This document shows, piece after piece, positions 39,566-44,529 of a stretch of 64,000 nucleotides of DNA (positions are counted from its first letter, which is position 1; each line of letters starts with the position of its first letter). The notes under the pieces are model-generated. The model was not told the origin of the DNA, did not search any database, and was given only the letters and a program-made list of their open reading frames with translations. The stretch comes from Hyphomonadaceae bacterium (GTDB taxonomy: Bacteria > Pseudomonadota > Alphaproteobacteria > Caulobacterales > Aquidulcibacteraceae). Position numbers and translations under genes: made by a program. The DNA is taken from positions 62,001 through 126,000 of the forward strand of contig JAKFWO010000008.1 of the NCBI GenBank assembly GCA_021731815.1. Reading direction: 5' to 3'.

Positions 39566-40300
39566 TCAGCCCGGTTCCGAACCCAGCCGCCGATAGCGCT
39601 CCCAGCGATCCTGTCCCAGCGCAATATGGTCCCATAGCGTAAAGCGCAAGGCAGCCGACAGGTCAGGCAACGCCAGAAAATCAACGCAGGGATGGCTCTC
39701 CCCCCCGATCAGCACCGGTGCGCGGAACCATTCGATCGCATCGACCAGTCCCGCGCGCAGAAACGCGCCCGCAAGCGTTCCTCCGGCTTCGACCAGTACG
39801 GAATTCAGCGCAAATTCCGCAGCCAGAGCGGCCATCGCCGCTGGTAACCCGATTTTTCCGTCGTGATCCATGGCCGCTTCATGGAGATGCACCCCGGCCT
39901 TTTGCAGTGCCACCCGCCGTTCATATGAAACTGCCGGACCATGCACGTCCACGACCGGCCCGGAGCCAAGCGTTCCGATCAGCCGCGAAGCGAGGGGAAG
40001 GCGCGCCGCGCCATCAAGGATGATCCTGAGATCTGGCCCGGATTGCTTGTCTCCCCCCGAACCGCCGCGAGCGGTCAGCAGGGGATCATCGGCCAGCACC
40101 GTGCCGATCCCGGTAATGACCGCATCTGCCTGCCCGCGCAGCTCCCGCCCCATGGCGCGCGCGGCGGGTCCGGTGATCCAGTGCGAGCGCCCGTCGGCCA
40201 ACGCGATCCGGCCGTCAAGCGAGGTCGCGAGCTTTAATGTGATCCGCGGAATTCCGCCCGATGGGTGAGCGTTGTTCTGCTGTTCGCCTTCCAAACTCAT
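39566..40300 (-). CDS. ribD: RibD-type pyrimidine reductase without the deaminase domain
   Basis: A 244-residue protein matching only the C-terminal reductase half of Rib[45 protein letters not shown], then [19 protein letters not shown]. It reduces the ribose of the aminouracil intermediate using NADPH. The N-terminal zinc deaminase (about 145 residues with HAE and PCxxxGxTPPC) is completely absent, although the gene sits in the normal ribD place between nrdR and ribE and overlaps nrdR by four bases. It may have lost that half or be a RibD2/RED-like stand-alone reductase. Confidence 0.88.
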
Positions 40301-40788
40301 TCCGAATCGATCGGCGCGCGGTGGGGTGGTGGCGGATGGGGAAACAATTCGTCACCGATGAATTTCTGAAAATCCCTGGTCTCGCGGAAATCCTTATAGA
40401 CCGAGGCATAGCGCACATAGCCCACTTCATCGAGCGCGCGCAGGGCTTCCATCAACATCTGGCCGACCACATCGGAATGGATTTCGGCCTCGCCCATGCT
40501 TTCGAGGCGCCGCACCACGCCAGAAATCATCTGATCGACCCGATCGGGGCTGACCGGCCGCTTGCGCAACGCGATGCTCACCGAGCGCATCAGCTTGTCG
40601 CGGTCGAAAATTTCGCGCCGCCCGGATTTTTTGACGACCGTCAATTCCCGCAATTGCACGCGCTCGAAGGTCGTGAACCGGCCGCCGCACTGGCCGCAGA
40701 TCCGCCGCCGGCGCACCGAATTACTTTCCTCCGCGGGGCGGCTGTCGCGCACCTGGGTGTCGTGATGGCCACAAAACGGACAGCGCAA
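40297..40788 (-). CDS. nrdR: Transcriptional repressor NrdR
   Basis: Represses ribonucleotide reductase genes at NrdR boxes in response to (d)ATP. 163 residues: zinc ribbon with Cys3, Cys6, Cys31 and Cys34 ([30 protein letters not shown]) and an ATP-cone ([44 protein letters not shown]). The 14-residue tail ([14 protein letters not shown]) is extra. It starts 15 bases after the glyA stop, the usual glyA-nrdR arrangement. Confidence 0.98.
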
Positions 40789-40803
40789 GGTGCCTCCTGC
40801 TGG

Positions 40804-42135
40804 TCAATCGCGGCGATAGATGGGGAAAAGCCGGGTCAAGGCTGCGACTTCACCGGCGACTTTCGCCTCGATGCGCCCGGCCCCCGCACCGTCAGTGCCC
40901 GGCGCGGAGGATTCCGCGCATGATTCGACGACCTCGGCAATCCAGCGTCCGATCTGGCGGAATTCCGCTTCGCCAAAGCCGCGGCTGGTCGAGGCCGCCG
41001 AGCCGATCCGAATGCCGGACGTGACGCTCGGCTTTGCATCGTCAAACGGGATCCCGTTTTTGTTGCAGGTGATGAGCGCCCGGCCGAGCGCATCCTGCAC
41101 CGCAGCACCCGTCACGCCCTTTGGTCGCAGATCGACGAGCGCCAGATGGGTATCGGTCCCGCCTGACACGATATCGAGCCCGGCGCGGGTGATTTCCTCG
41201 GCCATCACGCGGCAATTATCAATCACCGCCTGGGCATAATCCCGGAATTCGGGCCGCAAAGCCTCGCCAAACGCCACCGCCTTGGCGGCGATCACATGCA
41301 TCAGCGGCCCGCCCTGAAGGCCGGGAAAGACAGCTGAATTAATCTTCTTTGCCAGCGCCGGATCATTGGTCAGTACCAGCCCGCCGCGCGGCCCGCGCAG
41401 GGTCTTGTGGGTGGTCGTGGTCACCACATGGGCATGGTCGAGCGGATTGGGGTAGAGACCCGCCGCGACCAGCCCGGCAAAATGGGCCATGTCGACCATC
41501 AGATACGCACCGATTTCGTCGGCGATCTCCCGGAAAGCGGCAAAATCAATGATCCGCGAATAGCCCGACCCGCCGGCGATGATGATTTTCGGCCGCTCGA
41601 CCTTTGCCCTGGCGCGGACATCGTCGTAATCGATGCGGCAATCCTCCCGCCGCACCCCGTAATGACGCGCCGTGAACCATTTGCCCGATTGATTGACCGG
41701 CGAACCATGGGTGAGATGCCCGCCTTCGGCAAGACTCATCCCCAAAAAGACATCGCCCGGCTGCATCAGCGCCATGAACACGGCCTGATTGGCCTGGCTG
41801 CCGGAATGCGGCTGGACATTGGCAAAGCCGGCAGAGAATAATTGCTTCGCCCGTTCGATCGCCAGTCGCTCGGCGACATCCACCCAATGGCAGCCGCCAT
41901 AATAGCGCAGACCGGGAAAGCCTTCGGCATATTTATTGGTCAGCACCGAGCCCTGGGCCTCAAGCACCGCGCGCGAGACAATGTTCTCCGAGGCGATGAG
42001 CTCGATCTCGAGATCCTGGCGCGAGAATTCACCCGCCACCGCGGCCGCGAGTTCAGGATCGGCCTCCGACAGCGAACGCACGAAATCAGCTTCATGCTTC
42101 CGGGGCCTGTTCTCAATGATTGCGTCTGCCGACAT
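40804..42135 (-). CDS. glyA: Serine hydroxymethyltransferase
   Basis: PLP enzyme interconverting serine + THF with glycine + methylene-THF; 443 residues. Motifs: [62 protein letters not shown] and [14 protein letters not shown] with the PLP Lys. The true start is ATG 42135 (AGGAA upstream); the frame runs on through a 14-bp minisatellite that starts 11 bases further upstream, so the ribosome site abuts, and its AGG is the continuation of, the repeat. Followed by nrdR and ribD. Confidence 0.98.
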
Positions 42136-42146
42136 GTCAAATTCCT

Positions 42147-42283
42147 GATTCCACGGCCCTGATTCCACGGCCCTGATTCCACGGCCCTGATTCCACGGCC
42201 CTGATTCCACGGCCCTGATTCCACGGCCCTGATTCCACGGCCCTGATTCCACGGCCCTGATTCCACGGCCCTGATTCCACGGC
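42147..42283. repeat. Minisatellite, 14 bp x 9.8, in the glyA leader
   Basis: Nine perfect copies of GATTCCACGGCCCT and eleven bases of a tenth, without a single substitution. On the glyA strand the unit is AGGGCCGTGGAATC. It lies between the moaE stop and the glyA start and ends 11 bases before the glyA ATG. There are no spacers, so it is not a CRISPR. Perfect identity points to recent or ongoing expansion. Confidence 0.97.
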
Positions 42284-42351
42284 ATGGTGATTGCCCAAGG
42301 ACCATAGCCGATCCCCGGCGACCGCGCAGCACATTTGGCACCATCCAATCC

Positions 42352-42783
42352 TCAGAAAGACACGCGATCACCGGCCGGATCGGTGCTGCCTGGCTCGATC
42401 CAGCGGCGAATATTACCGGTTTCCTCGAGTTTCCAGAACGGGGCCTCCAATTTCAGCCAGTCCATCAGCCGGTCCAGTGCAGCGATCGCCGCCTTGCGAT
42501 GGACGCTTGCCGCCGCCGCGAGCACGATGGCTTCCCCCGGCAGCATCCGCCCGACGCGGTGGATCACCATGGCCGATTCGAGGCCGAATTCGGTCCGGAG
42601 ATTATCCGCGAAAGCAGCGATCATGGCTTCCGTTACGCCGGGAAAATGCTCGAGCAGCAGCGCATCGCTTTCGGGCCGCACGATGCCCGTCATCGCCACG
42701 ACCGCCCCGGACACGCGAAGCCCGTGACGGAACGCAGCAAGTTCGGCTTCCGGATCAAAAGCGCGGTCAGTTATCCGGATCAT
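42352..42783 (-). CDS. moaE: Molybdopterin synthase catalytic subunit
   Basis: Large subunit of molybdopterin synthase, which with thiocarboxylated MoaD inserts the dithiolene sulfurs into cyclic pyranopterin monophosphate. 143 residues. VAMTGIVRP, IHRVGRMLPGEAIVLAAAAS, HRKAAIAALDRLMDWLKLE and APFWKLEE with the catalytic Lys are visible. The start overlaps the upstream transporter gene by ATGA. Confidence 0.96.
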   Translation of the reverse strand: MIRITDRAFDPEAELAAFRHGLRVSGAVVAMTGIVRPESDALLLEHFPGVTEAMIAAFADNLRTEFGLESAMVIHRVGRMLPGEAIVLAAAASVHRKAAIAALDRLMDWLKLEAPFWKLEETGNIRRWIEPGSTDPAGDRVSF

Positions 42784-43496
42784 GTCAGCACCAGTTTGAG
42801 GCCTGCAATCAGCATGACCACGGCCAGCGCCCGGCGCAAGATCGCGGGGTCGTAAAACCGGAGGCCGAGTTTCGTCCCGAGCAGCGCGCCCGCCGCCGCC
42901 GCTGCGAGCATCCATGGCAGGCCCGGCGGCAAATGAAGCAGGACGAGATGATTGCCCGCGAGCCCGGCTGCCGAATTGACGAGGATGAACAGGCTGGCAA
43001 TCCCGGTGGTGGTTTCGGCGCGCGTCCAGCGCAGGAAGATCATCAGCGGCGAAAGAAAGATCCCGCCGCCCGTGCCCGTCAGCCCGGCGAGCAGGCCGAT
43101 CCCGGCCCCCGCCGCCATGGCCACTGGCGGAGCGGGGCGCCTCGTTGCCTGCGCGTCCGGCCCGGTGCCGGACCGAAATGCCAGCCGCACTGCCGAAAGC
43201 AGCAGGACGACACCCAAAAGGATCCGGTAATATTCCTCCGGCAGGCGGATCGCGCCACCCAGAAAGGCCAAAGGCATGGCCCCAAGCGCCAATGGCCAGA
43301 ACAATTTGCCGTCAAACCGTCCGGCACCAATGAAACGCCAGGCGGCAAAACCCGCCACCAGCAGATTGAGCGTCAGCGCAGCGGGCCGCATCTGATCGGA
43401 TGCCAGTCCCATCAGGGCCATGATGGCGAGGAAAGCGGATGCGCCACCATGCCCGACCGAGGAATAAAGCGCCGCCGCCGCGAAAAACGCAGCCAT
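42780..43496 (-). CDS. TSUP-family (TauE/SafE) membrane transporter
   Basis: A 238-residue protein with about eight hydrophobic segments. The two family repeats start GHGGASAFLAIMALMG and GLTGTGGGIFLSPLMIF. TSUP proteins move sulfur-containing anions such as sulfite, sulfonates or thiosulfate. It lies between moaD and moaE, overlapping moaE by four bases, so a supply of sulfur or removal of sulfite for cofactor chemistry is conceivable but unproven. The exact start is uncertain because the frame begins just after the moaD stop. Confidence 0.88.
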   Translation of the reverse strand: MAAFFAAAALYSSVGHGGASAFLAIMALMGLASDQMRPAALTLNLLVAGFAAWRFIGAGRFDGKLFWPLALGAMPLAFLGGAIRLPEEYYRILLGVVLLLSAVRLAFRSGTGPDAQATRRPAPPVAMAAGAGIGLLAGLTGTGGGIFLSPLMIFLRWTRAETTTGIASLFILVNSAAGLAGNHLVLLHLPPGLPWMLAAAAAGALLGTKLGLRFYDPAILRRALAVVMLIAGLKLVLT

Positions 43497-43532
43497 CAGC
43501 AGGCCAAAACCGGGATCGCCGGGGGCCAGGGC

Positions 43533-43787
43533 TCAGCCCCCCGAAAATGGCGGCAGGAAAGCCACTTCATCGCCCGGGCGGATAACCGGATTGGCTCCGC
43601 GCGGCAGGACAGTCCCGTTCACCGCCACCCGAATGACCGGCGCGGACAAGGCGGCGAGCAGGCCGGAATCACTCCCTGCCACCTGTTCCCGAAATTCGGC
43701 GAGGCCCAGCGGCACCGCAAGCGGGACCGGATGCCCGGACATGCCGGCCTGGTCGCGCAGCCGCCCGAAGAACAGCACGCGGCTCAT
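43533..43787 (-). CDS. moaD: Molybdopterin synthase sulfur-carrier subunit
   Basis: Ubiquitin-like 84-residue protein ending in the required diglycine (PPFSGG). VLFFGRLRDQAG at the start and VNGTVLPRG...IRPGDEVAFLPP before the tail match MoaD. Adenylated and thiocarboxylated at the terminal Gly, it donates sulfur to MoaE. The start overlaps the stop of the SRAP gene by ATGA, so translation of MoaD is coupled to a DNA-damage protein. Confidence 0.95.
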   Translation of the reverse strand: MSRVLFFGRLRDQAGMSGHPVPLAVPLGLAEFREQVAGSDSGLLAALSAPVIRVAVNGTVLPRGANPVIRPGDEVAFLPPFSGG

Positions 43788-44455
43788 GCGGCCCTCTGCA
43801 GCACACCGTCGGCGAGCGGAACCGCCAAAGCCGGGACAAGGCTGACCGGTGCCGAGAGCCAGGCCAATTGCGCTTCGGCATCCTTCAGGATGACCGGCAT
43901 GGCCTTGGCATGAATTGGTTTGACGTCATTGTTCGGCGCGCAGGTGAGAATTGCAAACACAAGGTGATCGCCCGAAACCGGAGCCGATTTCGTCCCGCGA
44001 TCGCCGCGCCATGGCCGCCAGATCCCCGCAAAACATGCATTGCGATCTCCCGCCAGGGCAAACCATGCCTCCCGGCGCGGGGATGAATCGGTATATTCGG
44101 CGAAGGTGGTGAACGGAACGAGGCAACGCTGGGCGGGAACCAGCCAGGGTCGCCAAAAGGGGCTGTCGGTATTGCGAAGATTGGTGACCACGCGGCCATG
44201 GCTGGCCGAGGGCGGCGGCGGAAATCCCCAGCGCATGGCTTTTGCACGCAGGGGCGCACGCAGGGGCGCGCTCTGGGGCGCGCGCAGGGGGGATTGGGTC
44301 GCCCGATCATCGGGCATTCCTTGCCGGTCCTCGCACAGAACCGGGGCCACGCGGTCTGGAAAAAGATCGATCCGGGTTTCGGAGAATTCCTCATAACCGA
44401 GGATTTCCAGTTCGAGCCCCGCTTTGCGCCGCTCATGGGAATAATGATTGCACAT
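43784..44455 (-). CDS. SRAP-domain (HMCES/YedK) abasic-site DNA-protein crosslinker
   Basis: 223 residues. Cys2, exposed after Met removal, is the nucleophile that forms a thiazolidine with abasic sites in single-stranded DNA. The family pattern is clear: MCNHYSH at the start, AKAMRWGF, NLRNTDSPFWR, RCLVPFTTFAEY with the Glu, and IHAKAMPVIL with the His. ATG 44455 fixes Cys2 and excludes longer frames. A proline/alanine/arginine-rich insert coded by a 12-bp repeat (44244-44291) precedes AKAMRWGF. First gene of a minus-strand run into moaD. Confidence 0.93.
   Translation of the reverse strand: MCNHYSHERRKAGLELEILGYEEFSETRIDLFPDRVAPVLCEDRQGMPDDRATQSPLRAPQSAPLRAPLRAKAMRWGFPPPPSASHGRVVTNLRNTDSPFWRPWLVPAQRCLVPFTTFAEYTDSSPRREAWFALAGDRNACFAGIWRPWRGDRGTKSAPVSGDHLVFAILTCAPNNDVKPIHAKAMPVILKDAEAQLAWLSAPVSLVPALAVPLADGVLQRAA
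44244..44291. repeat. In-frame tandem repeat, 12 bp x 4
   Basis: Unit GCACGCAGGGGC, two perfect and two degenerate copies inside the SRAP gene, coding for RAPL/RAPQ-like blocks. Confidence 0.85.
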
Positions 44456-44529
44456 TGCCGTGAAATGCCCTTCGCCACCCATGCCAAAAGCGCTTATCCT
44501 GAGCGCAAGACCCGATTGAGGAGATTCAC

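Follow-up and report, generated by a model that had tools for sequence, protein, structure and literature searches.

The gene for serine hydroxymethyltransferase, glyA, is preceded in this alphaproteobacterial genome by a tandem array of a 14-bp unit that runs directly into the ribosome site (SD) of the gene. This raises the question whether the array serves the expression of glyA or whether it was formed there by a process that has little to do with this particular gene. The genes and signals concerned are listed here as they lie in the window, the whole stretch of 64,000 nucleotides that was analysed:

39566..40300, minus strand: protein with a RibD C-terminal reductase domain, overlapping the end of nrdR (Pfam RibD_C, 1.7e-35)
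40297..40788, minus strand: nrdR, directly downstream of glyA (Pfam NrdR zinc ribbon and ATP-cone)
40804..42135, minus strand: glyA, serine hydroxymethyltransferase, 443 aa, ATG at 42135 (Pfam SHMT, 6e-166)
42143..42146, minus strand: SD-like AGGA, 7 nt before the ATG, its AGG being the last three bases of the array (from the sequence)
42144..42283, minus strand: tandem array, 10.0 perfect copies of GCCGTGGAATCAGG on the glyA strand (TRF)
42283..42285, minus strand: far-edge ATG, in frame with glyA via the array, 50 codons (from the sequence)
42284..42351, minus strand: non-repeat part of the moaE-glyA gap, 68 bp (from the sequence)
42352..42783, minus strand: moaE, upstream neighbour of glyA (Pfam MoaE, 1.2e-22)
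42780..43496, minus strand: membrane protein of the TauE/SafE family, upstream of moaE (Pfam TauE, 2.9e-33)

The array and the start of glyA

The 216-bp gap between moaE and glyA consists of the 68 bp of non-repeat DNA, the 140-bp array and AATTTGAC. Read on the glyA strand, ten GCCGTGGAATCAGG units (42283 down to 42144) are followed by AATTTGAC and then by the ATG at 42135; in this 48-contig draft assembly, a perfect array of 140 bp may have been given a copy number other than the real one. For 42144-42283, TRF reports 10.0 copies with 100% matches, 0 indels and a score of 280. The initial annotation had described a perfect array, and indeed every copy is identical. Its extent of 42147-42283 with 9.8 copies has to be enlarged, since it omitted the AGG that is common to the array and the SD. 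If this AGG is not counted, the array ends 11 bases before the glyA ATG, just as had been stated; otherwise the distance is 8 bases. The recurring AGGG was also seen correctly and is present at the unit junctions, and glyA, nrdR and the RibD_C gene do share one strand. The proposal that the SD is the broken end of the last unit captures the common AGG, but the relation is better reversed: the unit extends into the SD and covers its first bases. Thus, copies are added upstream and the spacing between SD and ATG is unchanged, i.e. it is independent of the copy number. Each unit contributes one TCAGG and one GAATC (GANTC) site, and AGGGCC is formed at the nine unit junctions. The repeat was found at this single place in the 2.53-Mb draft genome.

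The hits of GlyA place the genome in the Alphaproteobacteria. The start of glyA at the ATG at 42135 fits the N-termini of the homologues, the first residues being in much the same place, and the glyA genes of relatives have purine-rich sites at a comparable distance from the start. No sigma-70 consensus promoter was found upstream of glyA; GGCTATGG at 42309-42302, which has no accompanying -35, resembles what we take to be an alphaproteobacterial -10 element. There is no sign of a riboswitch (for example for glycine or THF) or another known leader RNA: an Rfam search of positions 40000-44500 gave no match up to an E of 1. The ribD-like gene at 39566-40300 encodes only the RibD_C domain; the deaminase domain is absent here and must be encoded elsewhere or be replaced.

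A genome-wide class of short arrays

The array is not a product of chance. When the window was simulated 20 times with an order-1 Markov model, the top array score was 83 as compared to 280 for the real array, and the simulations yielded 0-4 TRF rows each (mostly 0-1) versus 20 in the real window. With short head-to-tail units above chance level, the glyA array is a minisatellite. The upstream regions of 111 other alphaproteobacterial glyA genes were free of any comparable array, their best repeats having two to three copies, and in the literature on glyA repeats or such arrays we found nothing closer than the systems discussed below.

The genome itself turned out to be rich in such arrays. 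We sampled 864 kb and then an independent 791 kb, together 1.66 of 2.53 Mb (about 65%), and used 120 loci (1.38 Mb) from relatives and named alphaproteobacteria as controls. Arrays with a period of 10-20 were counted, and those with a score of at least 90 were regarded as strong. The genome contains 256 such arrays in 1.66 Mb (15.5 per 100 kb) as opposed to 54 in the 1.38 Mb of the controls (3.9 per 100 kb). For strong arrays, the numbers are 60 and 1 in the same lengths of DNA. This burst therefore amounts to four times the density in the relatives, and to about fifty times for strong arrays. The second sample resembled the first one in density and motif bias. Extrapolated from the sampled density, the whole genome of 2.53 Mb is estimated to hold about 390 short arrays. 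The burst was absent from every other sampled relative, most of these samples being small. Typical units are 12-18 bp long, and their sequence differs between arrays. With gene boundaries from a simple home-made codon-usage gene caller, the period is divisible by three in 85 of 96 arrays in genes, but only in 57 of 147 between genes: the reading frame is preserved in coding DNA, where it counts, and not elsewhere. A tract of another kind, a 30-bp unit in 15.7 copies at L252:1174-1643, is probably a repeat protein or a low-complexity coding region.

Several possible causes of the burst were rejected. Loss of mismatch repair does not apply to this genome as MutS is present, and an origin by end joining was discarded in view of the absence of Ku; hence, the burst could not be traced to a defect in repair. 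Similarly, the idea that the units are driven by hairpins was discarded because DNA folding of array units was no better than that of random intergenic units.

The arrays have no preference for promoters or start codons. Their density per intergenic kb is 0.72 in tandem, 0.59 in divergent and 0.72 in convergent gaps. Of 109 arrays, 15 are separated from a start codon by no more than 15 bp, as compared to 15.1 expected if each array is moved randomly inside its own intergenic gap. Intergenic arrays are more frequent than expected at this distance from a stop codon (35 versus 21.1). Several other start-proximal arrays also include SD-like bases or even start codons. A 13-bp array with TCAGGAA lies directly before a coaD-like gene (L142:5079-5121) and is thus a second array that includes a ribosome site. 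At two further loci (L232:4840-4906 and L234:6585-6634) the gene's own start codon is part of the repeat (ATGTCTGGTCC... and GTGCGGGAAGCCGG..., respectively), resulting in several possible starts one after the other. Among all these arrays, the one at glyA is the longest perfect array in the sample, and its copy number is unequalled among the sampled arrays of period 10-20. Since it is the most perfect array and the one with the most copies, a process beyond the average, or selection, could have favoured it.

Although each array has its own unit, the units share sequence features: they are enriched in TCAGG/CCTGA, GGCC and combinations of these words. TCAGG was present in 18 of 78 intergenic units of the first sample (3.7 expected) and in 9 of 69 of the held-out sample (2.9 expected). 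The degenerate word WCHGGSC occurs in 56 of 256 units versus 14.2 expected (controls: 1 of 54 versus 2.0 expected), an excess that is somewhat optimistic as this word was picked after both samples had been seen, whereas the simpler words were replicated. A motif derived from the first sample modestly separates held-out units from random windows, with an AUC of 0.65 and 31% versus 11.5% at score 6. The glyA unit, which belonged to the training half, is the top match of the motif among the 256 units. In an exploratory analysis of array boundaries, 34 of 117 had GG|CC junctions at phases 0/+1 as compared to about 16 expected. Two other sources of this bias were dismissed. The core words have an observed/expected ratio of about 1 in the genome, and the core is therefore not an over-represented Chi-like word. 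Moreover, in tandem gaps TCAGG is found seven times in sense and seven times in antisense orientation; this balance relative to the flanking genes indicates that the enrichment does not come from an SD signal. It is tempting to speculate that tandem duplication is directed by sequence in this lineage, so that a TCAGG(G/C)C / GG|CC core, lying in a segment of 12-18 bp or at its boundary, causes this segment to multiply in place across the whole genome, within genes as well as between them, with the glyA array as the strongest product and TCAGGGCC as the proposed core of the array units. We put this forward only tentatively and consider it rather doubtful. Eukaryotic minisatellites are said to share a recombination-prone core, to which the core of the arrays may be likened.

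Expression, methylation, reading frame and assembly

Could the array nevertheless act on glyA? It might be a rheostat that resides in the 5' leader, where gain or loss of units alters RNA folding and thereby the translation of glyA and the downstream genes, giving rise to heritable variants. The array adjoins the SD, and on folding the leader is more stable than shuffled sequences (z -3.0). Moreover, base pairing between the units is predicted, and under many choices of the transcript start the energy needed to free the ribosome site is predicted to go up and down as the copy number switches between odd and even, with changes of up to about 2.7 kcal/mol. However, the size and even the sign of this effect vary with the assumed 5' end, and the alternation is a prediction of the folding model rather than evidence of regulation. 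The lack of start preference among the arrays, the absence of the array from all other glyA regions tested and the fact that glyA is a housekeeping gene rather than a gene for surface variation also argue against a rheostat, and we regard it as unlikely. Even less probable is a role of the ten GANTC sites within 140 bp as a cluster of CcrM sites at 14-bp spacing that would make glyA expression follow the methylation state and hence the cell cycle. Every unit does contain GAATC, and a few other arrays have GANTC at 14-bp spacing as well. The genome encodes a protein with a RAMA domain, as found in CcrM, and avoids GANTC (4307 sites outside the arrays versus 7865 expected); in the light of this avoidance and of the CcrM-like RAMA protein, ten sites in 140 bp are notable. 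Yet the sites arrive as part of the unit, most arrays are devoid of GANTC, and the enrichment in intergenic units is only mild, both for GANTC (8 of 78 versus 4.7 expected in the first sample) and for GAATC (14 of 147 versus 7.1 expected in both samples). As a theme of the array class GANTC was dropped, its enrichment not being significant in the first sample. An imperfect GANTC cluster with 14-bp steps but no tandem repeat is located at G000:C5:56055-56101.

Two further explanations, both extremely unlikely in our view, concern the reading frame and the assembly. If translation started at the far-edge ATG (42285), glyA would carry an in-frame N-terminal extension and its reading frame would depend on the copy number, as it does in phase-variable genes: the unit length of 14 bp is not divisible by three, and ten copies keep the far-edge ATG in the frame of glyA. 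This frame runs from 42285 into and through glyA without a stop codon, and the gene caller chooses 42285; but all three frames are open through the array on the glyA strand, and openness is thus no evidence for an extension. Such a long extension is present in no homologue, and it is the proximal ATG that has a good SD while the far-edge ATG does not. We conclude from the lack of an SD and from the three open frames that the far-edge ATG is probably not used. As for the assembly, a real array that is shorter or longer would be conceivable in a 48-contig draft, since 140 bp of perfect repeat come close to what common short-read platforms cover in one read. Against an artefact stand the unique flanks on both sides, which are joined to normal genes, and the imperfect arrays elsewhere in the genome, which demonstrate that the class is real.

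Origin of the array and its relation to known repeats

Taken together, we think that the glyA array is probably a recent minisatellite that arose by slippage or duplication, that it belongs to a genome-wide, core-biased class, and that any selected role of it at glyA is small or absent. The starting point would have been a 14-bp stretch whose last three bases were the first three of the glyA ribosome site; this stretch would have been duplicated and then multiplied, presumably by slippage or unequal recombination. This would reflect a duplication tendency of the lineage that favours segments with a TCAGG(G/C)C-like core, regardless of their location. The array would have grown against the ribosome site in such a way that the AGG was copied and the spacing between SD and ATG stayed fixed, and ribosomes would use this SD to begin translation at the proximal ATG. 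More copies mean longer DNA and, if the promoter lies upstream, a 5' leader that is extended by 14 nt per unit; any effect on the expression of glyA, nrdR and ribD would then be incidental tuning. The complete lack of substitutions suggests recent growth or continuing turnover. The presence of hundreds of similar arrays with no preference for starts or promoters, and the absence of an array from all 111 other glyA regions, count against a dedicated role at glyA, and a selected function there is accordingly small or lacking in our interpretation. The array has the appearance of a by-product of duplication throughout the genome rather than of a device built to switch glyA. The glyA locus is a genuine and extreme minisatellite, yet ordinary in kind.

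In several respects, the glyA array resembles bacterial VNTR loci and minisatellites: it has short head-to-tail units, perfect copies and an intergenic position, and variation by slippage is expected. It differs from them in that the density of arrays is far above that of related genomes. Ehrlichia carries repeats that are probably longer than the units described here. In the alphaproteobacterium Ehrlichia ruminantium, as in this genome, tandem repeats have expanded genome-wide in non-coding DNA, and its intergenic tandem repeats undergo active expansion and contraction according to PMC10710844, citing Collins et al. 2005. In contrast to E. ruminantium, the present genome has 63% GC and is about 85% coding, and its arrays have units of 12-18 bp, occur in genes as well and share a core. 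The TAACTGA direct repeats of the Beggiatoaceae also form many short sets, often start-proximal, with a common sequence, but they consist of one fixed heptamer that is mostly located just before starts (PMC4679880). The arrays studied here each have their own unit and are not concentrated in that manner (15 of 109 no farther than 15 bp from a start versus 15.1 expected). Finally, the repeats of 1-4 bp that mediate phase variation of surface genes at nadA, porA and hifA/hifB alter promoter spacing or regulator sites (PMC3899988). Like them, the glyA array lies beside expression signals and its length could therefore affect expression; unlike them, it has a 14-bp unit, is placed outside the spacer between SD and ATG, and precedes a housekeeping gene.

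The core-biased burst of arrays across the genome is more interesting than the glyA locus, which is a candidate VNTR that has grown up to the ribosome site of a housekeeping gene. A class of roughly 390 arrays (as extrapolated) that have a core in common and occur at a density absent from the sampled relatives provides a natural test system for two questions: why do some bacterial genomes gather minisatellites, and does a sequence motif direct tandem duplication?
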